Assembly: GCA_004102785.1 (NCBI GenBank)
Contig: SCEJ01000019.1
Location: forward strand, 1-54,968
Direction of reading: 5' to 3'
From: Muribaculaceae bacterium Isolate-013 (NCI)
Lineage (GTDB): Bacteria > Bacteroidota > Bacteroidia > Bacteroidales > Muribaculaceae
Length of the DNA: 54,968 nucleotides
A program made the position numbers and the translations under genes. The notes under the pieces were generated by a model, which worked only from the letters and a program-made list of their open reading frames with translations, was not told the DNA's origin and ran no database searches. Position 1 is the stretch's first letter; the number at the start of each line of letters is the position of its first letter. Of the stretch, positions 161 to 48,995 are shown one piece after another.

Positions 161-167
161 CGTCCTT

Positions 168-850: not shown

Positions 851-866
851 GATGTTGTTATCCGGA

Positions 867-13636: not shown

Positions 13637-13678
13637 GATGTTTATAGGTGATAGTTTTTTGAAATTTACAATTTACAA

Positions 13679-14194
13679 TCAGTTTGCGTAGCCGAGTTTG
13701 GCAAGCACCTCGTTGGATACGTCGATACGGGGCGAAGCGTAGATGATGTTGGCCGACGACGCACGGTCGAAAATCGCCTGGTAGCCGCGCTCCTCGGAGA
13801 GTTTTTTCACGGCGTTGTATATGTCGTCCTGGATGGGCTTCATCAGCGTCTGACGCTTTTTGTAGAGTTCCCCCTCCGGACCGAAATATTTATATCGCAG
13901 CTCGGTGGCCTGTTTCTCTTTGGCCACAATCTCCTCCTCGCGCTTCTTCACCTGCTCCTCGGTGAGGAACACCTTGTCGGAGATATACTGCTTATACATC
14001 TGGTCGGCCTCCTTGCTGACAGCCTCGACCTCTTTCTGCCAGCGCTGTGAAAGCTGGTTGAGCTGCTCGTTGGCCATCTCGTAGGAGGGCACATTCTTGA
14101 GGATGTACTCCATGTCAATCAGCGCGAACTTCTGCGCCGAGGCGGCCAGGGTGCATATCACCGCAAAGGCCAGCGAGAGAAATATCTTTTTCAT
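13679..14194 (-). CDS. OmpH/Skp family periplasmic chaperone (first copy)
   Basis: The protein is 171 residues if started at MKKIFLSLAFAVICTLAASAQ (14194), which gives a proper signal peptide; ten further in-frame codons upstream are unlikely to be translated. KFALIDMEYILKNVPSYEMANEQL is followed by a long charged coiled helix (KEVEAVSKEADQMYKQYISDKVFLTEEQVKKREEEIVAKEKQ) and IQDDIYNAVKKLSEERGYQAIFD, the Skp/OmpH pattern. It is clearly diverged from the copy at 13115, so the two are old paralogues, not a recent duplication. Confidence 0.9.
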   Translation of the reverse strand: MKKIFLSLAFAVICTLAASAQKFALIDMEYILKNVPSYEMANEQLNQLSQRWQKEVEAVSKEADQMYKQYISDKVFLTEEQVKKREEEIVAKEKQATELRYKYFGPEGELYKKRQTLMKPIQDDIYNAVKKLSEERGYQAIFDRASSANIIYASPRIDVSNEVLAKLGYAN

Positions 14195-14287
14195 ATCAAC
14201 ACATTTATAATTAAAGACAAACAAGCGGCGAAAAGGTTTAACCCCGGAGCACTGAAGCCGGAGCGGCAGCGCCGCCTGCGGCCGTGA

Positions 14288-16918: not shown

Positions 16919-16972
16919 ATCTCTGTGATGACTGTTGTTGGAGAGATCAATTGGGTTAATGATTAACGAAAG

Positions 16973-17761: not shown

Positions 17762-17796
17762 CGGGCTTTGTGAGGGATTGGTTAAAAAATTGTGCG

Positions 17797-18480
17797 TCAG
17801 TCTACGTAGTGGCAGGTCTGACACCTTTCGCCGAATTCGTATGTGACTGAAATCTGTATGTTGGAGTACCAGTCGGTATTACGTCCGAACGACGACTGTA
17901 TCTGATGCAGATCCGAGAGAGGGCCGTCGATATGGTCGTTGAAAACCTTCGTCATGGAGAACTCAGCGCCGAGATTGAGGCGCGGCTTGATTTTATACTT
18001 CACGCCGAAGGCCATGGGGATGTTGAACCCCACGGCAGTCTGGCCGGAGCAGGTGGCAAGGGTGGCGCCCACACCAACGGCGAGATACGGACTCCACCGG
18101 CGCAGATTCTTGTAGGTCTCCCCTATTCCGTAGGGGAAAAAGTTGAATTCCACGCGGGCGCCGAGGTCATAGGCCGTTGACTTGAACGAGTAGTTTTCCC
18201 CTCCGGGAAACACATCGTCCATCCCTTTGGTGTCGCCGCTGAGCCCCATCACGTTGAATACCGTGCGTACGGCCCAGCGCACATCGGGCAGATAGCGGAA
18301 AGAGACTCCGGCCGAGAATCCCGGATGCGCGAATATGCTCTGCGACGCGTCGCCCAGATACCCGGCCATACCGGCCTGCCCTCCAAGGTCGAACTTGTAG
18401 GTCGATTCCTGCGCGTGCCCCCGCAAGGCTGCCGGGAACATGGCAAGAAGCAGTATGAGCGACAAAACCGTTTTTCTCAT
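17797..18480 (-). CDS. DUF6089-like outer membrane beta-barrel protein
   Basis: The protein is 227 residues from MRKTVLSLILLLAMFPAALRGHAQ (18480), which provides the signal peptide. The mature part has the strands and turns of a small outer membrane barrel (FDLGGQAGMAGYLGDASQSIF, VSFRYLPDVRWAVRTVF, YDLGARVEFNFFPYG, LAVGVGATL). DUF6089 family members occupy this place directly upstream of uppS and bamA in Bacteroidales. It ends with CQTCHYVD, a pair of cysteines after the last strand. The function is not known; a structural or assembly-monitoring role beside bamA is inference. Confidence 0.75.
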   Translation of the reverse strand: MRKTVLSLILLLAMFPAALRGHAQESTYKFDLGGQAGMAGYLGDASQSIFAHPGFSAGVSFRYLPDVRWAVRTVFNVMGLSGDTKGMDDVFPGGENYSFKSTAYDLGARVEFNFFPYGIGETYKNLRRWSPYLAVGVGATLATCSGQTAVGFNIPMAFGVKYKIKPRLNLGAEFSMTKVFNDHIDGPLSDLHQIQSSFGRNTDWYSNIQISVTYEFGERCQTCHYVD

Positions 18481-18518
18481 CGTAAGGAGTCCGGGGAGAG
18501 AGGCATATTGAATCATGC

Positions 18519-19964
18519 TTACTGCAATGGTTTGAACCGCAGGGCGTTTATGGCACCCACGCGATAAAAGAACTGGAGCCGCGAATCCTTATCGCGTCCG
18601 CCGAACAGGAACAGGCAGGGCACATCCCACTCGGTAATCGGACGTATGGCTTTGGGCCTGGCGCCGGCTTCATATTCAAAAACAAGGAGGTCAGCTCCGC
18701 TGAGCGCGGGAAAATCCTTCGGAAGCTGCACAGGCACATCGCCCAGCCCCCAGGTCATACCCATGTCGCGCGACACGTAAACCTTGCCGCTGACATCAGC
18801 TCCGTTGCGGCCTCCTACGGCCACGAGCGCGGGCTTCATGGTGGTTACCCAGCTAAGAGTGTCGGTGTGCGCTATGGTGTAACGGCACACGGCATACCCC
18901 TCGGCGGCAGGTAGCCCGGCGCCTACCTTGGCCCAGCGCGAGCCGTCGTAGGCCCAGGTGGAGCCGGTAAGCGCTCCGGAGGCGGCGCGTCCGCCGGCTA
19001 CAAGCACCTGCGGCTTTACGGCCCACTCCGTTGACGACAGCACACTCTGCGAGAAGCCGCTCACCGGGAAATCGGCCGATGCGGCACGCTCCGCTGCGGC
19101 GGGATATGCCACGTGAACGTATGAGCCGTCGGCATTTCTCTTCAGCCCGAGCACACCCGGAGGATATGCCGCCGTGATATTTTCCCAGCCGCCTATGCCG
19201 GCAACCGGGGCGAAGTCAACGCCGTCGGTGCTCGACAGCAGGTTGCCGGAGCCGTCGAGTATATATAAGGTGTCGCCGTCGTGCGAGGCGGTAAGGGTCG
19301 ACACATTCAGGTCGGCAGGAAGATTCGCCGCAACCTTCTCCCACCGGCCGTTGAAAACATCGGTAGAGCGGTAGAGCTCGTAACCGGCCGAAGTGGCAGC
19401 CAGCGTATAGGCCGTGTCGTGGAATTTCACAGTGCGCATTTCCGAGGCCGTGCTCACAGGCATCGGAGGGAGGGCGGCATCGCTCCACTGGAGGGAGTCG
19501 GCAGACTGCGTGTGCACGTTGACTTTCAGCGTATATGTGCGCTCGTATGAACCGTTGTAGCTCTTGATGTAGAGCGACACCGGTTTCTCGAAATTCAGTT
19601 TTTCGTCGGGCGAGGTCAGGTAGTCAACAACCGTGTCGGTGCCGTGCACCGAAGTCATGTGAAACTTGCACTCTGTGCAGGCATCGGTCTGCATCGTCAC
19701 AGCCAGGGCGCTTATATCAGTGCCTACGGGAAGCGAATCGGCATTGAAAATCATGCCGTTTACAAGATCTATGGAGAAAAAGACCGAATCGATATTATTG
19801 AGCACCTGGTCATTTTCCTTGAGCGAGAAACTCTTCACCGCCGTACCGGAATAATCAGCCGTCCCCTCCTGACCGTAGTTTTCAGAAGAGTTGCAGGCCC
19901 CGGCCGCAAGCAGGAGCACTGCCGCGCAGGCGCCATAAAATCCTTTATATATTGCTTTTTTCAT
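18519..19964 (-). CDS. DUF6242-like lipoprotein
   Basis: A 481-residue protein with a lipoprotein signal (AVLLLAAGAC, Cys24). The N-terminal ~130 residues form a beta-sandwich (VKSFSLKENDQVLNNIDSVFFSID). The rest looks like a sialidase/Kelch-type propeller with repeated blade segments (YELYRSTDVFNGRWEKVAANLP, LLSSTDGVDFAPVAGIGGWENI, VYVSRDMGMTWGLGDVPVQL). It resembles DUF6242 of Bacteroidales, of unknown function. It is the first gene of the envelope operon: its stop is 38 bases before the next start, and a -7 box lies at 19988-19995. Confidence 0.7.
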   Translation of the reverse strand: MKKAIYKGFYGACAAVLLLAAGACNSSENYGQEGTADYSGTAVKSFSLKENDQVLNNIDSVFFSIDLVNGMIFNADSLPVGTDISALAVTMQTDACTECKFHMTSVHGTDTVVDYLTSPDEKLNFEKPVSLYIKSYNGSYERTYTLKVNVHTQSADSLQWSDAALPPMPVSTASEMRTVKFHDTAYTLAATSAGYELYRSTDVFNGRWEKVAANLPADLNVSTLTASHDGDTLYILDGSGNLLSSTDGVDFAPVAGIGGWENITAAYPPGVLGLKRNADGSYVHVAYPAAAERAASADFPVSGFSQSVLSSTEWAVKPQVLVAGGRAASGALTGSTWAYDGSRWAKVGAGLPAAEGYAVCRYTIAHTDTLSWVTTMKPALVAVGGRNGADVSGKVYVSRDMGMTWGLGDVPVQLPKDFPALSGADLLVFEYEAGARPKAIRPITEWDVPCLFLFGGRDKDSRLQFFYRVGAINALRFKPLQ

Positions 19965-19987
19965 GCAAGCGTAGTTGTTTCAAATTG

Positions 19988-19995
19988 CAAAGTTA
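19988..19995 (-). promoter_or_regulatory. Candidate -7 box for the DUF6242-bamA operon
   Basis: TAACTTTG on the minus strand matches the Bacteroidetes -7 element and lies 23 bases upstream of the start codon at 19964. No TTG occurs at the expected -33 position, so the promoter is only partly supported. Confidence 0.5.
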
Positions 19996-20106
19996 GCAAG
20001 TTTTTGCAAATCTTGAGCCATAACACGGAGTTTTCAGCATTTTTAAAGTTTATATGCCGACAATCCGGGCGATTTAACATACGTTTCCTCCCGGGGTCAC
20101 ACACTT

Positions 20107-21129
20107 TCAGTCGAATCCGCCGAAAAGCGGGTTGTTGGAAAACCACACCACCTCGTTACCGCCAAAACTCCTGCGGCCGCACACCTCCGCAGGAGGAAGC
20201 GCCGGCGCCGGGGCAGTCCCCGCTGCGCCGAGCGCGAACGGAGCGGTCTCCACCCGCAGGGCATCCCACGTGCCTGTCTCCAGCAGGGCCGAGAGATAGG
20301 TAGGCCCCGCCTCGACCAACACGGATGTGACGCCATGAGCCTCAAACAGCCCGGCGAAGAATTCCCCGGGAGCGCATCGGCCGTCGGACACCACTGTGTC
20401 GGCGCCAAGCACCGGTTCCGCCCCCGTGAGGCGCCGGCTGCGGTCAACGACCACACGCATCGGCGAGGTGCCATCCCAGCCCCGGAGGGTGAGCCGGGCT
20501 CCATCGGCTATGGCAGTGGCCGCAGTTGTCACCACCGCTCCCACCTCAGAGCGCAACTTCATTGTGAGCAGCGAAGTCACAGCATTTGAAAACCTGGCCG
20601 GAGCCTGGCCCGGGCTACGGCGTATATCCATGAATCCGTCGGCCGACTGTGCCCATTTCATATATACGAAAGGCCGGCGCTGCCGCTGGGCCGTGAAAAA
20701 CACATGGTTCAGCATCTCCGACTCGCGGGCGAGAACTCCGGCAGCCACCTCCACACCGGCCTCGCGGAGGATTGCCAGCCCACGGCCGCTGACCTTGGGG
20801 TTAGGATCGCCGGCTCCCACAACCACCTTCGCTATACCGGTGTCGACCAGCAGACGCGCGCACGGCGGCGTCTTACCGTAATGCGAGCATGGCTCGAGGG
20901 TCACATACATCGTGCTCTGCGCAAGCAGATGGCGGTCGGCGTCACTCACCGAAGCCACGGCGTTGACCTCGGCATGTCCCTCGCCATAACGGCGATGCCA
21001 GCCGCTGCCTATAATCCGGCCGCCGGGAGCCACAATCACGGCCCCCACCATAGGGTTGGTGCCGGTCATTCCCCGGCCACGCGCAGCCAGACGCAAGGCC
21101 AGCCGCATATATTGCTCGTTGATTTCCAC
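20107..21129 (-). CDS. ribD: Riboflavin biosynthesis bifunctional deaminase/reductase
   Basis: A 340-residue RibD. The N-terminal cytidine-deaminase-like domain (residues ~1-145) carries the zinc ligands and catalytic residues: HAE (His52, Glu54) and PCSHYGKTPPC (Cys81, Cys90). It deaminates the diaminohydroxyribosylamino-pyrimidine intermediate. The C-terminal reductase domain (~150-340) begins RPFVYMKWAQSADGFM and reduces the ribosyl chain with NADPH. It is divergent from rpsU. No other riboflavin gene is nearby, and I see no FMN riboswitch in the 215-base upstream gap. A -7 box (TACATTTG) lies at 21153-21160. Confidence 0.95.
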   Translation of the reverse strand: MEINEQYMRLALRLAARGRGMTGTNPMVGAVIVAPGGRIIGSGWHRRYGEGHAEVNAVASVSDADRHLLAQSTMYVTLEPCSHYGKTPPCARLLVDTGIAKVVVGAGDPNPKVSGRGLAILREAGVEVAAGVLARESEMLNHVFFTAQRQRRPFVYMKWAQSADGFMDIRRSPGQAPARFSNAVTSLLTMKLRSEVGAVVTTAATAIADGARLTLRGWDGTSPMRVVVDRSRRLTGAEPVLGADTVVSDGRCAPGEFFAGLFEAHGVTSVLVEAGPTYLSALLETGTWDALRVETAPFALGAAGTAPAPALPPAEVCGRRSFGGNEVVWFSNNPLFGGFD

Positions 21130-36500: not shown

Positions 36501-39165
36501 CATGACCAACATGGCCATCAACCAGCTTTCGCCGGCGGCCATGCGGGTCAACATTCCGTCGCCCCCCTCCTCATACCCCTGGCTCAACGGATGGAACAGC
36601 AGCCCCCTGATATCCTCGTGGACAGCCGACTTAAAGCCCCTCCCCACCGGCAGCCACAACCCTCCGCAGTGGAACCTCTACGGAGTCAACTTCTACCCCG
36701 GCGGCATGAGGATCACCGACAAGCTATATGGCTCGCAGGTACGCGGACTGGCCGTCATGTCAAAAACCGAGGCTGAAGTTGAGGAAGTGGCTTTCGACAA
36801 TGCCGCTCCACAGATGGCCGCGGCAGGCGCCACTGCCGACGGCGGCGCCGACGAGGTGACAAACGTCACCACCCACAGCCAGGAAGTAGCCGTTACGGAA
36901 AAAGCCGACGACAGCGCCGGACAATACCGCCCGTCGGAGATACCGGTGGCATTCTTCCGCCCCATGCTCACCACCGCGGCCGACGGCTCGCTTGAACTTA
37001 CCTATCGCGTGCCCGACGCCAACACCACATGGATACTGCGCGCCGCGGCATACAACCGCGACCTGCTCACAGCCTCGGCCTCCGCCGAAATCATGGCGTC
37101 CAAGCCTCTGATGGTCAACCTCAACGCCCCGCGTTTTCTCCGCAGCGGCGACCATATCACAATCCCTGCATCGGTGATGAACGCCACCGACTCGGTCTGC
37201 TCCCCCTCGGGGCATATCGAGATTATCGACCAGGCCACCGGGCGTGTGCTCGCATCAAAACCATTCACATGCCAGGAGCTGGCTCCACAAGGGCAGGCCA
37301 CAGTCGGGCTTGACTACGAAGCCAACACCCTGACCGCCGCCCTGGTGGTGCGCGTGAAGGCGTCAGCCGGCAACTACACCGACGGCGAGCAGCAGCTCGT
37401 GGCTGTGCTCCCCGCCCGGCAGGATGTTATGGAGTCGCGTATATTCTACATCCCCGCCGACTCATCACGCTTCGCCATGCAACTCCCGGCGATAGCCCCC
37501 GGCGGCAAGGCAATGCTGAATTTCACGGAGAATCCCACCTGGCAGGTGGTGTCGGCGCTCCCCGGTCTGCGCGAGAACTCGGTGAACTCCTCGGTTGAAG
37601 CCGCCCACACCCTCTTCTCAGCCGCCGTGGCACGCGGCCTGGTGCAGCGCTATCCCGAAGTGGCGCGCACTCTGCGCCAATGGAGCGAAAATCCCGGCGA
37701 CTCCGCGCTGGTGTCGGCCCTTCAGGCCGACAGCCGGCTCCGCCAGGTGCTTCTTGACTCAACGCCATGGGTGCAGGAAGCCCTCAGCGACACCCAGCGC
37801 CTCCAGCGTCTGGCCCTGCTCCTTGACCGGAACGAATGCGCCAGAGTCACAGCCGAAGCCATCGACCTGCTGGCAAAAACCACTGCGTCCGACGGCGGAT
37901 GGAGCTGGACCGCGCGCTATACCGAAGTATCGGAATGGGCCACCTCCGAGATTCTTCTCACCCTCGGCCAGCTCAACAGAATGGGATGGCTCCCCGCCGA
38001 CCAGCGCCTGGAGCGGATGGTGGCAGGCGCCTGCCGCTGGCTCGATGCCGAGACCGCACGCCGCTATGCCAAGTACCCCAAATCGGACTACTCACTCTAT
38101 ACCTACCTGCGAGTCCTCTTCCCCGATGTGAAACAGTCGACCGCAGCGCAGCGCGTAAGCCAGGCCGCAGTGCAGCAGTGCATCGCCCGCTGGAAAGAAA
38201 GCACCATCCAGCAGAAAGCCCTCTCGGCCCTGATTCTCTCGGCCAAAGGGTATGCCGCCACAGCCCGGCAGATTGTGGCCTCGCTTGCCGAATACGCCAC
38301 CTCCACCCCCGAAAAAGGGATGTGGTGGCAACAGCTCGACCACACCTCATGGAACTCCCTCGACCGCGTCGGAGTGACTGCCGTGCTGCTCCAGGCCTTC
38401 AACGCCGTGCAGCCGAAATCGGCCGAAGTCGACCGCATACGCCAGTGGCTCGTGCTCCAGAAGCAGAACACTTCGTGGGGCTCGTCGGCCGTCACATCGC
38501 TGGTTGTGGCCTCGATACTCACCACCGGCAGCGAATGGACAGTGAACCCCTCCGGCACAGCCATACACATCGGCGACTCACTGCTCCAGCCCGACAAGGT
38601 GCAGTATGCCACCGGCGAGTTCACCGCCGACATCACCTCGCGGCTCACCTCCCCCGCCGAGCTCACAATCGACCGCCAGGCGAACTATCCGTCGGTCGGC
38701 AGCGTTATAACCCTTGAGCGCCGTGCGATGCAGGATGTAGCCGCCGTGGGATGCGCCGAAGCCACGATAGCCAAATCGATGAAAGTCTTCCGCAACGGGC
38801 AGTGGGCCGAAACCACAGAGTTCCATCCCGGCGACCGCGTGCGGGTGACCCTAACCGTCACTGCCGACGATGACCTCGACTATCTCGTAATCACCGACCC
38901 GCGCCCCGCCGGATTCGAGCCTGCCTCACAGCTTCCCGAACCGGTATGGAGCGAAGGCACATGCTTCTACCGCGAAAACCGCGACTCCTCCACAAACCTC
39001 TACATCAACCGCCTGCGGCGCGGCTCCTATATCCTCTCCTACGAACTTTATGCCGCTCAGACGGGCGTGTTCACCTCAGGTGCCGCTCAGCTCCAGAGCC
39101 AATACAATCCCATAGTCGCCGCACACTCTTCGGGCAGCGTAATCACCGTAAGCTCACATGAATAA
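33502..39165 (+). CDS. Alpha-2-macroglobulin family protein without thioester motif
   Basis: The protein is 1887 residues from MNRLIALIMAIAATAGMWAQ (33502), which supplies a signal peptide without a lipobox. A long N-terminal helical region is followed by macroglobulin-type beta domains (LVTPLSLYHPGDTVQWAAAAFIRAKG; YRLPTFRVEDVAAR). The conserved A2M segment lies near residue 1150 (FFRPMLTTAADGSLELTYRVPDANTTWILRAAA). The terpenoid-cyclase-like helical domain is at ~1350-1670. Where active family members have CxEQ, this protein reads LRENSVNSSVEAAHT, so it cannot form the thioester. Bacterial members are usually seen as periplasmic protease traps; without the thioester it may act through binding alone. 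It overlaps the next gene by 8 bases. Confidence 0.88.
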   Translation: MNRLIALIMAIAATAGMWAQKNSAPDFAYPRQVEKNADAAIGKALSRADYPALLEAVVQWSLAKTQVSSDSIPAVLTRLNAIASSVSDPAAGAMLTSLRATIYTRAYLNNRYTYDRREFTADAGEDFALWSKENFARRVDSLTMASLQPQESLLATPAAVYSAVIDFKNADKALYPTLLDFIGMRGVDNLSEFASGGSTLSQALVTDCTDTSLYPPAGNPAGDILRIYRSLETAAADAGRTSAQVNYLLDMMEFINERAFYHTSGTELYNEALMSRYRSMLPASDSAVRFLLATDSDFNRAEVYGELLRFSQEHPAYAGINAVTNRINAMGHKGVELSYNTFAVPGTPVKVKVAAENASEVKLLLYNVTGLIPRTDSGINMAKYSGRLGKPVEERTLRFSGSVPFVADTTVAFTLPDFGRYIFVAEVDGKRNTRQWVQALYATAIAPAVLTTVPEPWLVAANPLTGEPQKGVSFSMRPWSRNSDFVEISGTTDTDGFLKAKPQKDGGNILAQRGNDCYGPDATVNGHYRQPLDERMEVNLVTPLSLYHPGDTVQWAAAAFIRAKGKSGYCIASGRKVSLTLCDANGQEQGQAVATTDEWGRAEGFFVLPAGGLQGQYRIMARYTGASGGNEFGGNVWFNVSDYRLPTFRVEDVAARAPRLADGEGIVTGKALTFAGFPVADAKVEAQLKVRTGLWLWSRTSPVFASLKGTTGADGSFAIALPSEVLDSSPAPDGVFLVSVTVTSADGETHEASAQFNRGKPLAVSAEIPSEIDLSKPFSVFVNTLDYKGDKTDTELTYTISGCDAATTFSPVSGVIASGNISSVLGDLPAGSYTARFATTDTTLASAADNVKFILYRPDAAVSPVKQPLWVPYQNPVTDNGGKAALTFGSDTDGAWIWLSVTGPDASLVENRWLRSRKGMQTVEVSLPETLEQATVTLRCLRDYAYYSDETVIRQASSLKKIALRIETFRDKVTPGDLEKITFRITPAHGAGVQSAVMASMTNMAINQLSPAAMRVNIPSPPSSYPWLNGWNSSPLISSWTADLKPLPTGSHNPPQWNLYGVNFYPGGMRITDKLYGSQVRGLAVMSKTEAEVEEVAFDNAAPQMAAAGATADGGADEVTNVTTHSQEVAVTEKADDSAGQYRPSEIPVAFFRPMLTTAADGSLELTYRVPDANTTWILRAAAYNRDLLTASASAEIMASKPLMVNLNAPRFLRSGDHITIPASVMNATDSVCSPSGHIEIIDQATGRVLASKPFTCQELAPQGQATVGLDYEANTLTAALVVRVKASAGNYTDGEQQLVAVLPARQDVMESRIFYIPADSSRFAMQLPAIAPGGKAMLNFTENPTWQVVSALPGLRENSVNSSVEAAHTLFSAAVARGLVQRYPEVARTLRQWSENPGDSALVSALQADSRLRQVLLDSTPWVQEALSDTQRLQRLALLLDRNECARVTAEAIDLLAKTTASDGGWSWTARYTEVSEWATSEILLTLGQLNRMGWLPADQRLERMVAGACRWLDAETARRYAKYPKSDYSLYTYLRVLFPDVKQSTAAQRVSQAAVQQCIARWKESTIQQKALSALILSAKGYAATARQIVASLAEYATSTPEKGMWWQQLDHTSWNSLDRVGVTAVLLQAFNAVQPKSAEVDRIRQWLVLQKQNTSWGSSAVTSLVVASILTTGSEWTVNPSGTAIHIGDSLLQPDKVQYATGEFTADITSRLTSPAELTIDRQANYPSVGSVITLERRAMQDVAAVGCAEATIAKSMKVFRNGQWAETTEFHPGDRVRVTLTVTADDDLDYLVITDPRPAGFEPASQLPEPVWSEGTCFYRENRDSSTNLYINRLRRGSYILSYELYAAQTGVFTSGAAQLQSQYNPIVAAHSSGSVITVSSHE

Positions 39166-40645
39166 AATCTTACGAAAACTCCTCGCAGTGGGAGCGCTCC
39201 TGGCCGGGGCGCTCCCGCTGATGTATGCACAGGCACCCAAGCATGAAATGCGGGGAGCCTGGGTGGCCACCGTCTACGGCATCGACTGGCCCTCTGTGCA
39301 GGGTGCCACACCCGAAATAGCCGAGCAACAGAAAGCCGAGCTGACAACACTTATCGACACGCTCCAGACGGCCGGACTCAACGCCATCTTCCTGCAGGTG
39401 CGCCCTATGGCCGACGCCCTGTATGCATCCGACAAGGAGCCATGGAGCAGCTACCTCACCGGCCGGCGCGGCACCGCTCCGGCCGACGGCTGGGACCCCC
39501 TGGCCTTCGCCGTGGAGGAGGCCCACGCACGCGGCATGGAGCTGCACGCCTGGGTCAACCCGCTGCGCTTCGCCGCCTCATCGGCATCGCTCCCCTCTAC
39601 CCCGGCCGACACACGCGCCCTGCGCAACGGCTGGATTCTGAAATCAGGCAAATCGCCGGCGGTGTTCGACCCTGCCAACGAATCGGCCGTGCAACATGTT
39701 GTTGAAGTGTGCCGCGACATCATCCGCCGCTACGACATTGACGGGCTGGTGTTTGACGACTATTTCTATCCCGACCGTTTCCCGCGTCAGGCCAACGAGC
39801 CCGCCGACAGATACGGCGAGCTGCGCCGGCACTACGTCAACAAAACCGTGGCCGCCGTACACGCCATGGTGGAGAAAACCAAGCCCTGGGTGCGCTTCGG
39901 AGTAGCACCGGCAGGGGTGGCCGGAGGCAACGGCAAAGCCACGGCGAAATACAATATCCTCCCCCCCATCGTGGGAAGCGACTGGATGTACGACCGTATT
40001 TTCTGCGACCCGCTGGCATGGCTCAACGAGGGGACGGTCGACTACGTCTCGCCCCAGCTCTACTGGCCCACCGACCACGCCACCAACCCCTACGAGCCTC
40101 TGGCGCAATGGTGGGACAAGACGGCGCGGCATTTCCGCCGTCACTGCTTCCCCTCGCACTCACTCACGGACCTGGCCGCCACAAGGGCACACTGGGTAGA
40201 GCAAGGGAAACAGATCGACATCGACCGCCGCGCGGCCTCGCCCGGCTCGGTGCTCTATTCGGCCTCCTCGCTCACCGGTAAAAAAGCCGGAGGACTGGCC
40301 TCCTGGCTGAGCAACAGACAATATCTCATGCCGGCGCTGATGCCCCCTATGGAGTGGAAACACGCCCGCAACCCCGGCAAAATCACAGGCCTGACCCTCG
40401 ATGGCGAAACCCTTGGCTGGGATGACAACGACGCCGGCCGATATGTGGTTTACGCCCTGCCCCAGGAGCTGGCAGAGGAGGATGTCGCCGCCGACGCACC
40501 CGACCGCAACTACCTGGCCGCCTACATCGCCGGCATCACCTACAAGCCTGAATTCGAGCTTCCCGCCTACCTCCTCGATGGCTACCGCTATGCCGTGGCC
40601 CCCTACGACCGCTACGGCAACGAATGGGCCGCCACCCTCCTCTGA
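39158..40645 (+). CDS. GHL10-type glycoside hydrolase-like protein
   Basis: A 495-residue exported protein (signal MNKILRKLLAVGALLAGALPLMYAQ). The (beta/alpha)8-like domain starts EMRGAWVATVYGIDWPS and includes LNAIFLQVRPMADALYAS, GMELHAWVNPLR and YDIDGLVFDDYFYP, where the paired Asp residues (FDDYF) fit the active site of GHL10/DUF187 proteins. Relatives such as E. coli DigH cut denuded peptidoglycan glycans; that this one does so is inference. A short C-terminal FnIII-like part follows (~410-495). The start overlaps the macroglobulin stop by 8 bases, so translation is probably coupled and the two act in the same compartment. Confidence 0.85.
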   Translation: MNKILRKLLAVGALLAGALPLMYAQAPKHEMRGAWVATVYGIDWPSVQGATPEIAEQQKAELTTLIDTLQTAGLNAIFLQVRPMADALYASDKEPWSSYLTGRRGTAPADGWDPLAFAVEEAHARGMELHAWVNPLRFAASSASLPSTPADTRALRNGWILKSGKSPAVFDPANESAVQHVVEVCRDIIRRYDIDGLVFDDYFYPDRFPRQANEPADRYGELRRHYVNKTVAAVHAMVEKTKPWVRFGVAPAGVAGGNGKATAKYNILPPIVGSDWMYDRIFCDPLAWLNEGTVDYVSPQLYWPTDHATNPYEPLAQWWDKTARHFRRHCFPSHSLTDLAATRAHWVEQGKQIDIDRRAASPGSVLYSASSLTGKKAGGLASWLSNRQYLMPALMPPMEWKHARNPGKITGLTLDGETLGWDDNDAGRYVVYALPQELAEEDVAADAPDRNYLAAYIAGITYKPEFELPAYLLDGYRYAVAPYDRYGNEWAATLL

Positions 40646-40846: not shown

Positions 40847-42478
40847 TTAGAGGTTGTTGTATGTTATTATGTGTACTCCATGTTTTGAAATCTTATCGAA
40901 ATCCACTTTCTTTAATGCCTTTAAATCATCAAGTACCCATATTATATTTTTGACTCCAATCTTTGTACCAACCGAAGACGAAGTTTGAGCCTGCTTTTTC
41001 GTCAAATTATCCGATGAATAATTTAAAGCTTTCGCAAATGCACGCATTATAACAAAGCACCCCCTTGACTCCGGTATTGACGCGGAACTAACCCCTGTAC
41101 TCCTTTCAAGGTTACCTGCTACATCGTAAAAATCAAATACAGCAGCAAAACCATACCCCTCTTTCAAATATTCCTTCTTCAATTTCTCCACTCCTTTCTC
41201 CCATTTCTTTTTGTAGGATTCATCCGGAAAGGTAAGAGGTTTTAGCCCTGCCATATCCATAGGGAATGAAAATGCCAGGCCATCCTGATAAATATCCTTC
41301 ATCACCGGTTTGTGCGGCAGCATGGCCGAATATCCCATGCAAGCCGTCTCGATGCTGACGTTTTCACCATCCTGGAGTGTAGTACCTCTTATTTCCACAC
41401 TATCGGGAACGAATGGCAATGAATACAAAAGACGTGTCTGCGCCGCACCTATCGAGTTGGAAGTATTGACAAACAAACCGGTTTCAGACTTATCCTTTAC
41501 TGAAGTATATACAAAATCTGCAGGTAATGTGAATCTTACGCCATTACAGGATATGAAATTATCCTCCATAAAGTCAGTGGCAACAGAGCAGGAGGTAGAG
41601 CCTTGCAATTCCGAACCGTCAATCATCAGCCTCATCGCCACACTCATATATATACCTCCCCTTTCGCTTCTTTCAGTCTTATCAAACGTAGCAAGCCATT
41701 TGATTATCGCCACAGAGGCGTTCTCCTTTTTAGAATCCGTGATGCGGCACAGCACGAAATATTCTCCTCGATGGTTATAATATTCCTGCAGCACCTCGAT
41801 ATCCATTTTGAGATTTACATTGGATTCCATCATTATGGCTTCCAAATCGGATGCGCCTGATATACTTTTATAATTTCCGGTGAAGCTCACCGGCACGCGC
41901 GAGGCGTTGGCGTACATACCTATGGCGTTGGAAATAGCCATGGTTTTGGCTCGCTTGCCGTCAAGGGTGGGAGGCGCGATACCGACATACAGGTCAGACT
42001 CCGTGGCGGTATTCCACCATTCCGGCATGAGCGGCTCAGTGGCGGCACACATGGCCACCGGCTGCACTTCTTTCTTGCTTTGGGATAGAAGCACTTCAGG
42101 CGGAAGATCACTGTCAAGTTCGAGTATATATGTCATCTTCTTCACCACTCCTTTTGGAAACCATTCGTACAGATTGACCATCAACGGCTTATGTTTCTCG
42201 CCGATAATCTTCACCATTTTCGTTCCCTCAGGTAGATAGAGCCACGTCTCGGTACCATTGTCAACACGCCTCAATATATCGCCCTCGGCTTTTGCCATGC
42301 GGTCAAGCATCTGCACCTTTAGCAGCGCGCACGGCACACCGTTGAGATCTTTGACCGGCTGATGCGCAGCCGTGAGATCCATTTGGTCAAGTTCAAGCGA
42401 TTTTATAGTCAGATTTTGCGCCACGGCTCCCGACACCGCCATCACACAAGCAGCAATGAAGAAAAACAGTCGTCGCAT
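40847..42478 (-). CDS. Exported protein of unknown function, last gene of the kinase operon
   Basis: The protein is 543 residues from MRRLFFFIAACVMAVSGAVAQ (42478), which gives the signal peptide. Residues ~25-130 resemble the PEGA-like surface domain often found in Bacteroidales (LKSLELDQMDLTAA-type start; RVDNGTETWLYLPEGTKMVKIIGEKHKPLMVNLYEWFPKGVVKKMTYILEL). The middle part (~160-280) resembles LPP20-type repeats (YVGIAPPTLDGKRAKTMAISNAIGMYANA). The rest is not recognised. Base composition changes sharply near 41880: the part encoding residues ~130-200 is GC-rich like the neighbours, while the 3' 1000 bases are clearly A/T-rich, which suggests a mosaic origin. It starts 5 bases after the previous gene. 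Confidence 0.75.
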   Translation of the reverse strand: MRRLFFFIAACVMAVSGAVAQNLTIKSLELDQMDLTAAHQPVKDLNGVPCALLKVQMLDRMAKAEGDILRRVDNGTETWLYLPEGTKMVKIIGEKHKPLMVNLYEWFPKGVVKKMTYILELDSDLPPEVLLSQSKKEVQPVAMCAATEPLMPEWWNTATESDLYVGIAPPTLDGKRAKTMAISNAIGMYANASRVPVSFTGNYKSISGASDLEAIMMESNVNLKMDIEVLQEYYNHRGEYFVLCRITDSKKENASVAIIKWLATFDKTERSERGGIYMSVAMRLMIDGSELQGSTSCSVATDFMEDNFISCNGVRFTLPADFVYTSVKDKSETGLFVNTSNSIGAAQTRLLYSLPFVPDSVEIRGTTLQDGENVSIETACMGYSAMLPHKPVMKDIYQDGLAFSFPMDMAGLKPLTFPDESYKKKWEKGVEKLKKEYLKEGYGFAAVFDFYDVAGNLERSTGVSSASIPESRGCFVIMRAFAKALNYSSDNLTKKQAQTSSSVGTKIGVKNIIWVLDDLKALKKVDFDKISKHGVHIITYNNL

Positions 42479-42483
42479 ACAGG

Positions 42484-43455
42484 TCAGGGGAAGAAGAAGT
42501 CGTGGTGGGAGAAAACGCCTTCGGCGGCCGCGGCCTGGTCTTCCTGCCATGTGCGCACGAGAATCTGCGGATGCTCCTCATCGTTGAAGTCCCACAGAAG
42601 GAAGAGCCAGCCGTCGTCGTTGTAGGTGGATGAGCGCCAGGACTGGTGGAGGGTCACGCCATAAATATTTTCCTTGGAGCCATGGGCGGCGACAGAAATC
42701 CGGTCGAAACCCAGGTTGATCCAGCGGTTGTTGCGGAAGCAGCGGGCGAGGTTGCTCATATACTGCTCCTTGTTCTGCACGGTGTGTCGCACCTGCCGCA
42801 CATTTACTCCGCCATCGCCGAGCTTCCTCTGTTTCATCACCGAGCCGGTGATGATGATGGCGTCATCGCTGAATATCGCACGCAGAGCCTCAAGATTTTT
42901 CTCGTTGTAGAAGCAGCGGAAATCCTCCACGAACTTAAGAATCTCGCGACGCCGGCGGAGGTCCTCAACGGTGCGCCCTCCTTGCATTATTTTATCCATA
43001 TCCTCCTGGCTCTCCATTGCCAGACGCACGCCGGTAATTACCCCGCTGCGGTTGAGCGAGACTGTGAGCTGGCGGTTGAGCGACTGGTCGTAAGAGGCAT
43101 CCTGCGGCTTCATGGTCACGTTTATGCCGCGCACCTGGTAGCCCTGCATATCGTGCAGACAGGCGCTGATATTAAGCTGCTTGTCAACAGAGAACGGCAC
43201 ATTTGAGAAAAGAGCGTCGAGGCGGACGCGCGCCCCCTCCTCTATGTCGATACCTGTATAGTCGATGGCGCCGCCGGGAGCCGTGGCGTTCACGGCGGAG
43301 AGCACTGCTGAAATCTGACGCTCCATAGTGTTTTTCAGTGCGCCGTTGTCGATGGTGTTGGCCTTGAATTTAAACGATACATTCGCCATCGCCGAAAAGC
43401 TGACCGCCAGGAGCATAATGGCGGCAAGGCGTTTGAAGTCAATCACTTGAACCAT
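42484..43455 (-). CDS. Exported protein with NTF2/SnoaL-like domain
   Basis: A 323-residue protein with an N-terminal signal-type segment (FKRLAAIMLLAVSFSAMA). Residues ~25-160 form an unrecognised domain (FKFKANTIDNGALKNTMERQISAVLSAVN). The C-terminal part (~170-310) has the cone-like fold signature of NTF2/SnoaL proteins (ILKFVEDFRCFYNEKNLEALRAIFSDDAIIITGSV, then VTLHQSWRSSTYNDDGWLFLLWDF). These folds bind small ligands or mediate protein contacts; no catalytic residues can be assigned. The start overlaps the upstream stop by 13 bases. It is the fourth gene after trpS. Confidence 0.75.
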   Translation of the reverse strand: MVQVIDFKRLAAIMLLAVSFSAMANVSFKFKANTIDNGALKNTMERQISAVLSAVNATAPGGAIDYTGIDIEEGARVRLDALFSNVPFSVDKQLNISACLHDMQGYQVRGINVTMKPQDASYDQSLNRQLTVSLNRSGVITGVRLAMESQEDMDKIMQGGRTVEDLRRRREILKFVEDFRCFYNEKNLEALRAIFSDDAIIITGSVMKQRKLGDGGVNVRQVRHTVQNKEQYMSNLARCFRNNRWINLGFDRISVAAHGSKENIYGVTLHQSWRSSTYNDDGWLFLLWDFNDEEHPQILVRTWQEDQAAAAEGVFSHHDFFFP

Positions 43456-44195
43456 ATTATTCCGTAATCGTGATAGTTGGTTTCGTTATCCTGCGCCCCG
43501 GTGACGTAGTTCACGCGGGGAGATGAGTGGCGGGGAGAGAGGATGGCCTTCACACCGTAGTCGCGCCCTACAATCACCACAAAGGCGCCGTCGGGCACCG
43601 AGCGGTCGGAGCCTGCCTGGCCGAAATCGGCAACTTTTCCCAGCCCTTTGTTGTGGTTGAGTATGCGCCCCAGCTCGTCGAGCTGCAGGGGGCAGCAGGC
43701 GGCGAGCAGCTCGGCAATATCGGCGGCTGGAAGTGAGGAAATGGGACTTGTAGGACTGGCGGGAGCCGGGGTGGCGGGCTGAGAAATGGCAGGAGCGGGT
43801 GACGGCACGGGGATTGGTGACTGGGCCTCCGGGGCGGAGTCGTGGCGTGGTGTGATGGCAAGCGCCTTTTCTACGGTGAGATAGAGGAGCATCATATGGC
43901 GGACGTCGTCATTCAGACTCTGCGCATGAATCTGGACATCACCGACAGATACCGACGTCTTGCCCCGCTGCAGCCGGAAGTCCGACACCGTGGCCGCAAG
44001 GTCTTGTAGCGCAGCCTGATAAGCCTCCTGTTCCGAGTTCCCCTCCCCTATTCCGGAGATGTAGTTTTCGTTGATAAGGATGGCATTGACGCGCTCCTCG
44101 GCGCTCTGGGCCGCGGCAGTAAGGGGGCAGCAAAGCGCAAGCAGCAGCAACAGCAGCGCTGCGGCATTATTTTTTACCGACCTCATACTTCTCAT
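43443..44195 (-). CDS. Exported protein of unknown function in the kinase operon
   Basis: A 250-residue protein with a signal peptide (VKNNAAALLLLLLALCCPLTAAAQ). Residues ~31-110 resemble LPP20/SIMPL-like folds (YISGIGEGNSEQEAYQAALQDLAATVSDF: a glycine-rich turn followed by a helix). A Pro/Ser/Thr linker (~120-160) follows, then a C-terminal domain of ~85 residues (IAELLAACCPLQLDELGRILNHNKGLGKVADFG; FVVIVGRDYGVKAILSPRH). The start could be this ATG or the one 9 bases later; either way it overlaps the preceding gene by 20-29 bases, an unusually long overlap. Function unknown. Confidence 0.72.
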   Translation of the reverse strand: MRSMRSVKNNAAALLLLLLALCCPLTAAAQSAEERVNAILINENYISGIGEGNSEQEAYQAALQDLAATVSDFRLQRGKTSVSVGDVQIHAQSLNDDVRHMMLLYLTVEKALAITPRHDSAPEAQSPIPVPSPAPAISQPATPAPASPTSPISSLPAADIAELLAACCPLQLDELGRILNHNKGLGKVADFGQAGSDRSVPDGAFVVIVGRDYGVKAILSPRHSSPRVNYVTGAQDNETNYHDYGIIWFK

Positions 44196-44874
44196 GGTTT
44201 GGACATTCTACCTGATTGTCGTCGTTGAAGAGGGTTTTCACATTCTTCGTGGGCACATATAGGGATACACGCCCGGCAACGGCTCCTTCACCGCCGAACA
44301 GTTCAGCAGGGCGGCAGGTCACCTTCACCACATGGTCGTAGCCTTTGGCGGCATTGTAGAGGAAAAGCGCTCCCTGCAACTCCTCGCCGCCAATCTTCTC
44401 CACGCCCCAGAAAGGGGTACATCCCTCCTGGCGGCAATGCTCCACAAAGTCGCCTACGGTGGTCTCCACTGTCTCCTTCTCGCCCGGCTCATGCTTGAGG
44501 ACCGTAACGGTCATGGGGGTATCGAAGGCCTGTGCTACCGGCAGGATGAAAAGGTTTGCCATCGACTCGGCGGGATATTCAGCCGAGAAAACAGGGGTAG
44601 TCAGGCTGTCGGCTCCTGAAATATAATAGGTGCTTGCGTTGACGCTGCGAAGGTTATAGTATGGCCCCGGAAGGCGCAGCAGCACCGAGTCGACGAGCTC
44701 AAGGCTGTCGGGCACGGCAACTTCCCTCGGCTCGCCGTGAGCTACCCGCAAGCCGGCGATAAAGTTATCCTCGGCGGCCGAGCGCACGCTCACCTCACCC
44801 TCACCACGCAATGACGGGACAGCCACGGCGGCAACAACCGCCATAATAATTGATATTTTTCTGAAAATCATCAT
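44167..44874 (-). CDS. Exported protein of unknown function, directly after the kinase
   Basis: A 235-residue protein with a signal peptide (MMIFRKISIIMAVVAAVAVPSLRG). The mature part starts with a short domain resembling those that report stress or stalk regions (YNLRSVNASTYYISGADSL; FSAEYPAESMANLFILPVAQAFDTPMTVTVL). It contains a pair of Cys residues (CRQEGCTPFW) and a later Cys (VTCRPAE). I do not recognise the family. The start overlaps the kinase stop as ATGA, so kinase and this protein are probably made in step. Confidence 0.72.
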   Translation of the reverse strand: MMIFRKISIIMAVVAAVAVPSLRGEGEVSVRSAAEDNFIAGLRVAHGEPREVAVPDSLELVDSVLLRLPGPYYNLRSVNASTYYISGADSLTTPVFSAEYPAESMANLFILPVAQAFDTPMTVTVLKHEPGEKETVETTVGDFVEHCRQEGCTPFWGVEKIGGEELQGALFLYNAAKGYDHVVKVTCRPAELFGGEGAVAGRVSLYVPTKNVKTLFNDDNQVECPNHEKYEVGKK

Positions 44875-46391
44875 GGAATGATAGTTTTAAGGAGATTCCC
44901 GGCTGAGTCGTAAAGTTTACCGGAAATAAGCTGGCCGTTCTCGTAGGTGGCATTGAAATAGTCGCCGGGCGAGGCCTGCACCGATGAGTGGCGGTCAACA
45001 GCATGGGACGAGTGGAAAGTCAGGCGCCCGGCCCCGTGAGGCTTGCCGTCGCGGATGCCGCCGCTCCAAGTGGCGTAGCCGAAGGTGAGCGTGCCGGAAG
45101 TGACATTAGGCTTCGCGGGAGTGGGAGTGGTGGAACTCGTGGGAGTGGACTGTGGGGACTGTGTGGCCGGAGCTGTCGACGCGGCCTCGGCCCGGCGTAT
45201 TGAGTCGGCCTTGGCATGAGCCAGCGAGTCGATATATTCCTGTGTCACAACAATCTGCCCGGCAACTTCCGCCGGAGACTCAACCACTGCCGAGTCGGCT
45301 ATCTCCGTCTTCTCGGAGACGGCATCGCCCTTTTCCTGACGGGAATCATCGCCTCGGTTTCCGGCAACAAACCATATAACCGCCGCCCCGACAACGAGCA
45401 CCCCGATGAGCACCCATCTGAGCCAATTCGGGCGGGAGTCATCGCCCATGCGTATCTCCACAGTGCCATTTCCGCCGGAGGTGACGATGCCCAGGTCGGC
45501 CTTAAGCCTGGCCACGCTCTGCGTGCGGTCATCGGACGACTTGCACAATGCCCGGCAGAGCCCTTCGAGTTCCTCCTCCCCGAGCTTGTCACCGACGGCC
45601 TTTCGCACATCCTGGAGACGGAGCTCAGAGGCTTTGGCCGGAATCCTGCCGGTGAGACAATAGAGAAATGTAGCAGCCAGGGCGTAGACGTCGGTCGTGG
45701 GATTGAACTCCTGTATGCCGGCATACTGCTCCAGTGGCGCGAAACCGTCGGTGACACCCATCACCCCTTTGGGCGACGTCTTGCCGCCGCTTTTCCTGAA
45801 ATGCACACTGAGGCCGAAGTCAATCAACACCGGAGTCACGGCATCGCCCTTTTTCTGCAACATGATGTTTTCGGGCTTGATGTCGAGGTGGTTCACACGG
45901 TGTGAATGCAGATAGGTCACAGCATCAAGCACCGGGCCCAGTATGTTTTTTGCCTCCGCAGGAGTGAGGGTGCCGCGCGACCGCACATAGTCGTCGAGCG
46001 ACTCACCGCTGATATACTGCATCACATAGTAGACCGTGCCGTTGGCCTCGAACACCTCATTGACCTTCACAATATTGTCGCAGTCGGTGCCATACTTCTG
46101 CAGGCGCCGGGCCTCGGCCTCGAAGTCGGTGGCCGAGCGCCTGAAATCGTCGGCATGCCCTTCGAGAGGCACCACCGACCCGTCGGCGCCGCGGCGGCAA
46201 TAAGCCGAGGGGAAGTGTTCCTTCACTGCAAAATGCATGTCGGCGGTAACATTGCCAACCTTTACCTCACTGACAGTGAGATAGGTTATACCGAAACCAC
46301 CCGAACCGAGCTTCTTCTCGATCCGGTATGCGCCGACTCCGCTGGAGAGTATGTGCCCCTCAGGGAGAATGTTTTCTACTGATGCAGCCAT
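44871..46391 (-). CDS. Membrane-anchored Hanks-type Ser/Thr protein kinase with periplasmic MORN-like end
   Basis: A 506-residue protein. The cytoplasmic kinase domain covers ~22-300: Gly-rich loop GSGGFG (29-34), ATP-anchoring Lys57 (FAVKEHF), catalytic loop HLDIKPEN with Asp170, Lys172 and Asn175, and magnesium-binding DFG at 191-193. The usual HRD is HLD, so it is a non-RD kinase that may not need activation-loop phosphorylation. One membrane helix follows (~324-344, WLRWVLIGVLVVGAAVIWFVA), then a Ser/Thr/Pro-rich stalk and a periplasmic C-terminus (~430-506) with MORN-like repeats (YATWSGGIRDGKPHGAGRLTF; ATYENGQLISGKLYDSAG). It starts 9 bases after trpS and overlaps the next gene by 4. 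Target unknown; a signal from the envelope sensed by the MORN part is inference. Confidence 0.9.
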   Translation of the reverse strand: MAASVENILPEGHILSSGVGAYRIEKKLGSGGFGITYLTVSEVKVGNVTADMHFAVKEHFPSAYCRRGADGSVVPLEGHADDFRRSATDFEAEARRLQKYGTDCDNIVKVNEVFEANGTVYYVMQYISGESLDDYVRSRGTLTPAEAKNILGPVLDAVTYLHSHRVNHLDIKPENIMLQKKGDAVTPVLIDFGLSVHFRKSGGKTSPKGVMGVTDGFAPLEQYAGIQEFNPTTDVYALAATFLYCLTGRIPAKASELRLQDVRKAVGDKLGEEELEGLCRALCKSSDDRTQSVARLKADLGIVTSGGNGTVEIRMGDDSRPNWLRWVLIGVLVVGAAVIWFVAGNRGDDSRQEKGDAVSEKTEIADSAVVESPAEVAGQIVVTQEYIDSLAHAKADSIRRAEAASTAPATQSPQSTPTSSTTPTPAKPNVTSGTLTFGYATWSGGIRDGKPHGAGRLTFHSSHAVDRHSSVQASPGDYFNATYENGQLISGKLYDSAGNLLKTIIP

Positions 46392-46400
46392 AATGACCGT

Positions 46401-47495
46401 TTATTTTTTGCCGGCGGCGTATTTCTTAGCCTGTTCGGCAATGAGTTTATGGTCGGAGAAATAGTTGATTTTCATTGCGGCACGCACTTCGTCGAGAGTG
46501 GCGGATGCAGTGGCGCGCGCTTTCTCCGAACCTTTCTGCAGAATGTCGTACACCTTGGGGATGCGGGCTTCCCAGTAGGCGCGTCGCTCGCGTATCGGCG
46601 CAAGCACCTCCTCAAGCACATTGATGAGGAGCTTCTTCACCGTGCCGTCGCCCACGCCTCCCCGGCAATAGCAGTCCTTGAGGTTCTGGAGCGTGCCGAA
46701 CTCGGGGGCGAAGCGTGCCACCTGCTCGTCGGAGGCAAAGGCGTCGAGATAGATAAACGGGCAGTTGCCTTCGAGATGCCCGGGGGAGTCGATGGTGAGA
46801 TGCTCGGGGTCGGTGTACATGCTGTTGACCTTCTTCTTGACCTCCTTGGGGGTGTCGGAGAGGTAGATGCAGTTGCCCAGCGACTTGCTCATCTTGGCCT
46901 TGCCGTCGGTGCCCGGCAGACGCTGGCATACAGCCGAGTCGGGCAGCAGTATCTCAGGCTCCACCAGCGTGGGGCCGTAGATGTTGTTGAAGCGGTTGAC
47001 AATCTCGCGTGTAAGCTCAATCATCGGCGACTGATCGTCGCCGGCAGGCACGGTCGTTGCCTTGAAGGCGGTGATGTCGGCGGCCTGGCTTACAGGATAA
47101 CTGAAGAATCCCATCGGGAGCGACTTCTCGAAGCCGCGCATCTGTATTTCGGTCTTCACCGTGGGGTTGCGCTGCACACGCGACACCGACACCAGGTTCA
47201 TATAATAGAACGCCAGTTCACACAACTCCGGCACCTGAGTCTGCACGAAGAGCGTGCACTTCTCCGGGTCAAGACCGACGGAAAGATAGTCAAGCGCCAC
47301 CTCTATCACATTCTGACGCACCTTCTCAGGATTGTCGGCATTATCGGTCAGCGCCTGCGCGTCAGCGATGAAGATGAAAATCTTGTCGAATTCGCCTGAA
47401 TTCTGCAGTTCAACGCGGCGACGCAGCGAGCCCACATAGTGTCCGAGATGAAGGCGTCCGGTAGGGCGGTCGCCGGTAAGTATCACTTTTTCCAT
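46401..47495 (-). CDS. trpS: Tryptophan--tRNA ligase
   Basis: The protein is 364 residues from [24 protein letters not shown] (47495). The HIGH-type motif is HLGH and the KMSKS loop is [10 protein letters not shown], both needed to activate tryptophan with ATP and charge tRNA-Trp. Upstream in-frame codons up to 47588 overlap the promoter and the end of an insertion sequence, so they are excluded. The stop is 9 bases from the kinase start with no terminator between, so trpS is likely the first gene of a six-gene transcript. A -7 box is at 47525-47532. No T-box or trp leader was recognised. Confidence 0.95.
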
Positions 47496-47524: not shown

Positions 47525-47532
47525 CAAAGTTA
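47525..47532 (-). promoter_or_regulatory. -7 box of trpS and probably of the kinase operon
   Basis: TAACTTTG on the minus strand, 29 bases before the trpS start. The -33 region reads TTT instead of TTG. The ISAs1 element begins 53 bases upstream of this box, so the promoter itself is intact. Confidence 0.6.
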
Positions 47533-47765: not shown

Positions 47766-48995
47766 ATGGAGACACTTGACCAAAACCGTTCGATTGACGC
47801 GCATAAGCTCAATCACACCACAAAAGTAATAAATAAATTCGTTCCACAGGGCAGTATTCTGGAACGGCTGATGAATTTTGCCGCCTCAGTCCCTGATTTT
47901 CGCAGATGCGACAAAGGAAACCTCCGACACCGACTCCAAGACATCATCATTCTGATGATACTCGGACGGACGTGCGGGCATGTCGGACGATCCGATATAA
48001 TAGCGTTCGGCAAATATAATCTTAATAAACTCCGTAAAATGGGGATGCTGAAGAATGGGATTCCCTCGGGGGCAACCCTTTGCCGGGTAGAGAACGGCAT
48101 CGATGATCTGGCCATGGCGGACAGTATGCAGGCATTTGCCGAAAACTTCCATAACGAACTGTTTAAGGCATGCCGTGACAGGGAGATAGTCTGCATTGAC
48201 GGCAAAGCCGAGCGCGGCACCGTTCAGGAAAACGGGCGTAGCCCGGATATCGTCTCGGCCTATTCATTCAACACCGGCATAACAATAGCCACCGAAGCTT
48301 GTAAGGAAAAGAGCAACGAGATAAAGGCCGTACCGATACTTCTTGATAAAATAGATATCTCAGGAAAGATTGTCACGGCCGACGCCATGTCTATGCAGAA
48401 GGACATTGTCGAGAAAATCAGAAAGAAAGGCGGAGACTTTCTGATAGAACTTAAAGCCAACCAGCCGTCATTGCGATACGGCATTGAGGACAGGCTGGTG
48501 GAACACACACCGGTATATTCTTACACCGAAGGTCCCGAACTGGCCCACGGCAGGATAGAGACGAGAACCTGCCGCGTATATGACGGACTGGACATTATCG
48601 CAGACAAGAAGAAATGGGGCGGAAACATGACCATCATAGAGTATGAATCGTCCACAGTCAAAAAGTCAACAGGAGCACATACCTCAGAAAAACGCCTGTA
48701 CGTCAGCAGTATGCCCACGGATACTCCGAAGCTCGGAACCATCGTACGCAACCACTGGTCGATAGAAAGCATGCACTGGGGGCTGGACCACAATCTTCAG
48801 CAGGACAATATAAAACGCAAGTCGACGAGAGCTGCCCGAAACCTCGACACCATACAGAGAATCGTTTACTCGGTGTTCTCAATATGGAAAGGACTTCGCA
48901 AAAAACGATCGGACAAGAATAAAGGCATAGCCGAACTGATCAGACATATCTCGATGAGTTTTACCCGACTAATGCGATTTTTAAGCCAAAAATGA
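47766..48995 (+). CDS. ISAs1-family transposase
   Basis: A 409-residue DDE transposase, apparently complete. The N-terminal domain (VPQGSILERLMNFAASVPDFRRCDKGNLRHRLQDIIILMILGRTCG) is typical of the ISAs1 family. The catalytic core contains VCIDGKAERGT (first Asp), ISGKIVTADAMSMQKDIVEKI (second Asp) and RNHWSIESMHWGLDHNLQQDN (Glu in the WxIE/NxxxWxIE block). It lies 159 bases inside the left inverted repeat and ends 103 bases before the right one. No frameshift or internal stop is seen, so the protein is probably functional. Confidence 0.93.
   Translation: METLDQNRSIDAHKLNHTTKVINKFVPQGSILERLMNFAASVPDFRRCDKGNLRHRLQDIIILMILGRTCGHVGRSDIIAFGKYNLNKLRKMGMLKNGIPSGATLCRVENGIDDLAMADSMQAFAENFHNELFKACRDREIVCIDGKAERGTVQENGRSPDIVSAYSFNTGITIATEACKEKSNEIKAVPILLDKIDISGKIVTADAMSMQKDIVEKIRKKGGDFLIELKANQPSLRYGIEDRLVEHTPVYSYTEGPELAHGRIETRTCRVYDGLDIIADKKKWGGNMTIIEYESSTVKKSTGAHTSEKRLYVSSMPTDTPKLGTIVRNHWSIESMHWGLDHNLQQDNIKRKSTRAARNLDTIQRIVYSVFSIWKGLRKKRSDKNKGIAELIRHISMSFTRLMRFLSQK

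Follow-up and report, generated by a model that had tools for sequence, protein, structure and literature searches.

What does a membrane-bound Ser/Thr kinase do in the company of four exported proteins, and does its place behind trpS say anything about its purpose? These questions are raised by a gene set in a 54,968-nucleotide stretch of DNA from Muribaculaceae bacterium Isolate-013 (NCI), referred to here as the window, in whose coordinates the features are given. The genes of the operon all lie on the minus strand, in the order trpS, a 9-base gap, K (the kinase gene), B, C, D and E. A first-pass annotation of the sequence had described a kinase and four exported partners joined by overlaps and hanging on trpS, and the gene coordinates bear out both the set, with its overlaps, and the gap. 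The answer proposed here, to which we assign a probability of about 50%, is that the locus forms one half, that of the membrane and envelope, of a Ser/Thr phospho-signalling system of Bacteroidales, possibly one that senses the cell wall; its ligand, direction and function we infer. Among the observations that suggest envelope-to-kinase signalling are the conservation of the kinase with its C-terminal domain M and with B, C and D, the membrane span that precedes M, and a PP2C phosphatase tied to the kinase type of locus.

Relatives were collected by scanning named genomes with an alignment of D. This yielded 429 relatives, of which the best 80 were kept as 79 loci (numbered with L below). These loci were picked by similarity to D and are therefore not an even sample; they include near-copies (e.g., L105/L106, L075/L087, L080/L081, L132/L137, L139/L151, L126/L135/L141 and L091/L092), and their gene calls are longest open reading frame (ORF) calls. 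With one exception, "uncultured bacterium," they carry Bacteroidales-type names. B is present in all 79 loci, the B and D profiles both having been seeded from the same group of loci, and it lies on the same strand as D, with D downstream, in 77. In 66 of the 78 loci where this is visible, M immediately precedes B; C is found between B and D in 63 of 79, and E follows D within 500 base pairs (bp) in 52 of 74 visible loci. M-B-C-D is a recurrent Bacteroidales cassette, usually followed by a variable PEGA-type E. In the family, D matches were found in 39 of 149 genomes at a threshold of 0.001, some of them to a different, larger protein; in the genus, D was found at 1e-30 in 5 of 14 genomes. Among the 23 loci with a kinase-M fusion, B and D are each present in 23 and C in 16, and 13 of the 20 in which this can be seen have E no more than 500 bp from D. 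Together with the presence of PP2C in 14 of the 23, this conservation lends good support to the dedicated transmembrane signalling system that had been proposed at first pass.

K (44871..46391) encodes a non-RD Hanks-type Ser/Thr kinase of 506 amino acids, a single-pass membrane protein (Pkinase, 2.1e-30). Its catalytic motifs (Gly loop, Lys, Glu, HxD and DFG) are aligned and intact, with Leu in place of the Arg of HRD, and its closest relative in the PDB is PpkA (1.4e-23), a likeness of the kinase domain that is the one link seen to the T6SS threonine phosphorylation pathway. The non-RD kinase with a membrane helix that was first described is thus borne out. The one predicted span, residues 326-344 (45360..45416; 19-mer hydropathy of 2.47, a heuristic), sits between the kinase part and the C-terminal domain M, which is MORN-like and was recognized by a profile match at residues 427-506 (44874..45113). 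At E≤0.1, 26 of 65 M proteins match the Pfam MORN family PF02493, the strongest at 8.3e-6, and the window K gave no PF02493 match at E≤1. By hydropathy, 67 of 69 M proteins have a hydrophobic segment ahead of M and none after it. In L079, M forms the end of a WG-repeat protein that bears a lipobox and shows no match to kinases, which argues for a position outside the cytoplasm. The M domain of K therefore probably lies beyond the membrane.

The four partners each start with a hydrophobic stretch (a heuristic criterion), in keeping with the signal peptides initially assigned to them. B (44167..44874) is an exported protein that usually has 310-440 amino acids; by alignment, the window copy is a short form that lacks the N-terminal half of most relatives. 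The structure model of the L076 homologue has a predicted local distance difference test (pLDDT) score of 91.4. C (43443..44195, with an alternative start at 44186) is likewise exported. No Pfam family was found in more than one member when 72 B and 47 C proteins were scanned. An LPP20-like partner had been suggested, and this assignment could not be upheld: C scores 14.4 bits against LPP20 (PF02169; cut-off 25.9), and LPP20 is absent among the families matched in 47 C members at E≤0.05. D (42484..43455; model pLDDT 91.9) is an exported two-domain protein and, by the alignments, the most conserved partner. Its C-terminal NTF2-like domain, residues 161-312 (42520..42975), confirms the NTF2-like partner of the first-pass annotation and shares the fold of Csd6, Pgp2 and Bd1075: Bd1075 is the nearest Foldseek match (1.2e-6), Pgp2 is matched at 2.5e-4, and Pfam Cds6_C is found in 42 of 54 D proteins. 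Compared to these proteins, D has another N-terminal part and, judged by spacing, may not keep the pocket lysine of Pgp2. E (40847..42478) is an exported, variable partner with an N-terminal part that is PEGA-like, as had been stated, and an unclassified C-terminal part (E-family profile and a Pfam tally of 44 E proteins); outer-membrane barrel families were matched by 7 of these 44. The guanine-cytosine (GC) content of E is 0.456, compared to 0.558 for the window, and that of its 3′ part (40847-41700) is 0.415, which suggests a different origin for the C-terminal half. In L085, seven E-type ORFs stand in a run behind one D gene (10993-20129), which makes E look like a part that diversifies.

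Some relatives of D and E occur in other company. The window genome and several family genomes have a protein of about 615-660 amino acids with the NTF2-like region of D at its C-terminus (L055:8971-10878), and no B or C match was found near it in L055. In L056, L057, L058, L059 and L065, D-like and E-like genes stand without any B or C match; ahead of them, L056-L059 encode large lipoprotein-like proteins, and a kinase-like gene lies near them in L057, L058, L059 and L065 but not in L056.

The cassette is not confined to kinases. Upstream of it, a kinase-M fusion was found in 23 of the 79 loci, and a tubulin-like protein together with a zinc-ribbon/membrane/M protein in 36; the remaining 20 have M only (7), a kinase nearby but unfused (4) or other genes (9). 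By profile, the tubulin-like protein has about 990-1,070 amino acids, and that of L041 matches Pfam Tubulin_2 at 5.7e-44. The partners do not belong to the kinase alone, and the company that the same exported set keeps with a tubulin-like protein had been missed. The M domains borne by kinases (24, window included) and those of the tubulin loci (36) are homologous, as HHalign joined the two separate alignments with 99.9% probability (E 7.9e-34, 78 columns). On a quick tree of D with SH-aLRT (Shimodaira-Hasegawa-like approximate likelihood ratio test) support only, one switch separates the 24 kinase rows from the 36 tubulin rows, a count that omits the 20 rows of other types. A tree of kinase domains was restricted to the 28 whose catalytic match is long, which leaves out 8 of the 24 K-M proteins, and it is weak owing to long branches; on it, the presence of M needs at least three changes on starred branches and six in all, so kinases and M seem to have been re-paired. 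A tentative extension, which we would place somewhat short of even odds, is that M-B-C-D is an interchangeable transmembrane adapter, a conserved periplasmic sensor complex plugged into either of two unrelated machines of the cytoplasm, a Ser/Thr kinase cascade or an FtsZ/tubulin-like GTPase. If this is true, envelope signals of the same kind would govern phosphorylation in one lineage and act on a cytoskeletal protein in another.

The two types also differ in their accessory genes. Using profiles seeded from the same loci, with matches counted anywhere in a locus, PP2C was found in 14 of 23 kinase loci, where in 13 cases it precedes B on B's strand; three of the 23 hold less than 3 kilobases (kb) upstream of B. 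It was found in none of the 36 tubulin loci. The kinase loci also hold zinc-ribbon/FHA (9), FHA (8), caspase (7) and LytTR (4) genes; none of the 36 tubulin loci matches any of these profiles. In L075, L076, L084, L085 and L087, the genes form a single row, FHA, caspase, another gene, zinc-ribbon/FHA, PP2C, (kinase), K-M, B, C and D, which is headed by LytTR in L084 and L085. At the level of genomes, PP2C occurs in 39 of 149 in the family. Considering those where the gene upstream of the cassette is seen, PP2C is present in all six with the kinase-M fusion versus none of nine with the zinc-ribbon/tubulin type (Fisher, 2e-4); in two of these nine only the zinc-ribbon M protein is visible, at a contig edge, and the tubulin was seen in seven. 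This comparison leaves out G137 (contig edge), G102 and G146 (kinase unfused to M), all with PP2C, as well as genomes with D in other settings, such as G012 and G027 (PP2C present) and G056 (PP2C absent); G150 has D but is not part of the PP2C sample. Among ten genomes of the genus, PP2C is found in four of four with D and in one of six without D (Fisher, 0.048), and in those four it lies on a different contig from D.

In the window genome, one PP2C and one FHA match were found at E≤0.001, both on contig C184. There, LytTR, FHA, caspase, another gene, zinc-ribbon/FHA, PP2C, a kinase without M and a Sel1 protein stand in a row. Farther along on the same strand are a 542-amino acid protein that is weakly Tubulin_2-like (2.6e-4, below the cut-off), TerD (2.5e-41; L183:12064-12771) and, near TerD, a protein with a CW_7 repeat. 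These likely PP2C and FHA partners had escaped the first-pass annotation. As in the four genus genomes above that have D and PP2C on different contigs, the parts of one pathway may lie far apart and go unnoticed when operons are annotated one by one.

Compared to known systems, a close parallel to the signalling reading is offered by the PASTA kinases (PknB and StkP). Like these, K combines a cytoplasmic kinase, one span and a C-terminal domain beyond it, with genes for PP2C and FHA proteins as companions, in the same locus in relatives and on a separate contig in the window genome, where the pairing is putative. Unlike these, K scores 104.9 bits against a cut-off of 450 (NF033483), over the kinase part only, has no PASTA match, and carries a MORN-like domain with separate exported partners instead. 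In one lineage, the likeness extends to an FtsW/RodA and transpeptidase neighbor: L036, which is on the same contig as L081, has a fusion of FtsW/RodA and transpeptidase domains in one protein ahead of the kinase (15-4211), and a near-copy, a 1,398-amino acid ORF, lies between PP2C and the kinase in L080 (2089-6285). Further hints of the wall, beside the likeness of D to Bd1075 and Pgp2, are a LysM domain on the propeller protein of L119 and the CW_7 repeat on C184. In the proposed mechanism, M would carry a complex of B, C and D in the periplasm, in which the NTF2-like domain of D and the variable E would sense the condition of the cell wall or of the outer envelope. The sensed condition would alter the kinase, which would phosphorylate partners bound by the FHA proteins of the C184 locus; PP2C would reverse the phosphorylation, and the LytTR protein would provide a transcriptional output.

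Several observations weigh against this signalling reading, in which ligand, substrate and phenotype are only putative. First, 20 of the 79 loci have neither a kinase-M fusion nor a tubulin gene, and 17 of these hold at least 4 kb upstream of B, so neither kinase nor tubulin seems essential. Second, PP2C is absent in 9 of 23 kinase loci, the same-genus G097 has PP2C without a D operon, and C184 is linked to the window operon only through shared membership in relatives. Third, the loci with the FtsW fusion represent one lineage, as they are near-copies. Fourth, NTF2-like is a very common fold, with 135 PDB matches under 0.001. In the peptidoglycan pocket of Pgp2, as given in a passage of PMC8038945, lysine K307 lies two residues after G305; by residue spacing, without structural superposition, K307 falls on Leu284 of D, so D may not bind the wall as Pgp2 does.

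The alternative that survives best, though we consider it unlikely, is that M-B-C-D-E is the envelope half of an FtsZl1/Tubulin_2 membrane-remodelling machine and that, in the kinase version, a tubulin-like partner would be phosphorylated from elsewhere instead of standing next to the cassette. In the 36 loci described above, a Tubulin_2-type gene (PF13809) precedes the cassette, and C184 offers its 542-amino acid protein as a possible partner. In passages of Makarova and Koonin 2010 (PMC2875224), FtsZl1 operons have vWA, kinase, P-loop GTPase and OmpA partners, Bacteroides caccae being included; kinases are frequent neighbors and membrane remodelling is predicted. The same passages mark associated families A1-A2 and B1-B9, to which some of the present proteins may belong; most other genes are described as specific to a lineage and devoid of recognizable domains. 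A kinase at the N-terminus of the Planctomycete members is noted in PMC9871819. The present kinase differs in that it replaces the tubulin and itself carries M. Against the remodelling reading, no Tubulin_2 match was found in the window genome at E≤0.001, a single switch on the D tree parts the two types, which differ in PP2C too, and remodelling is itself a prediction. Among the matches listed in the open-access literature, no paper was found on this gene set, this form of kinase or the shared cassette. With a conserved exported cassette in common, the kinase and the still unexplained FtsZl1 family would each gain a partner on the envelope side that is open to experiment.

Less probable again is control in the opposite direction, with the kinase regulating envelope or wall synthesis and B-E belonging to the machine under control instead of acting as sensors. 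PP2C and the FtsW/RodA-transpeptidase-like fusion stand directly before the kinase in L080 (the domains were scanned in the near-copy L036), an arrangement comparable to the actinobacterial pknB-pstP-rodA-pbpA cluster, and the barrel matches of 7 of 44 E proteins would fit such a machine. Restriction of the synthase fusion to one lineage speaks against it, as does the exposed C-terminal domain of the kinase, which is usual for receptors.

A conflict system of the Ter/TerY-P type, one that would serve in stress or against phages and use the caspase as its effector, is improbable to a still greater degree. The TerY-P triad consists of PP2C, a kinase and the vWA protein TerY; C184 of the window genome has PP2C, a kinase, TerD and a C14 caspase, and the distribution of D in the genus is patchy (5 of 14). 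In PADLOC, the kinase domain of K is matched by 36 models, with mad6 (1.8e-37) first and PD-T4-6 second, and in L038 the PP2C matches PDC-M21C (1.1e-8) and the caspase a caspase model (1.3e-15). Nevertheless, no PADLOC match was found for B, C, D or E, K scores only 90 bits where MADS6 (NCBIfam) requires 460, and no vWA protein was found among the 16 C184 proteins scanned, which are part of the contig's genes. FHA, caspase, LytTR and the exported cassette are additions to the Ter arrangement, and the caspase ORFs begin with a signal-like stretch (by eye), not what one would expect of a suicide effector acting in the cytoplasm. PMC7159879 describes conflict systems with tubulin and caspase proteins, and none in the passages drawn on matches the present one.

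This leaves the trpS gene itself (46401..47495; TIGR00233, 252 bits), the upstream neighbor. Between trpS and K there is no terminator-like site, and the nearest TAnnTTTG to the operon, which we take to be the Bacteroides −7 consensus, lies before trpS (47525..47532, minus strand); the two-part promoter pattern has no match at this site, a candidate promoter by pattern match for trpS and, via read-through, for the operon in this genome. Read-through from trpS into K is therefore plausible but local. Of 14 genus genomes, 13 (window genome included) have a trpS match at 1e-60, and kinase profile matches lie beside it in the window genome only: none of the other 12 loci shows the kinase or a partner in a flank of up to 1.5 kb, the locus of one of them, G148, ending 0.2 kb past trpS. 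Nor was a trpS-like ORF found at E≤1e-10 in 119 related stretches (L035-L153), whose flanks vary, some of which overlap and two of which, L055 and L074, are other places in the window genome. In spite of the 9-base gap and the possible read-through, the earlier idea of signalling tied to translation capacity through trpS is thus largely refuted as a conserved feature and has very little to recommend it; the link is local to this genome.

A transposase-like ORF (ISAs1 or similar, by eye) lies at 47766-48995 on the plus strand, divergent from trpS, and may mark a recent rearrangement that joined trpS to the kinase operon. At the other end of the operon, a GHL10 gene (39158-40645) converges on E, and a GHL10 look-alike (by eye; L155:2720-4084) lies directly upstream of trpS in the same-genus G137.

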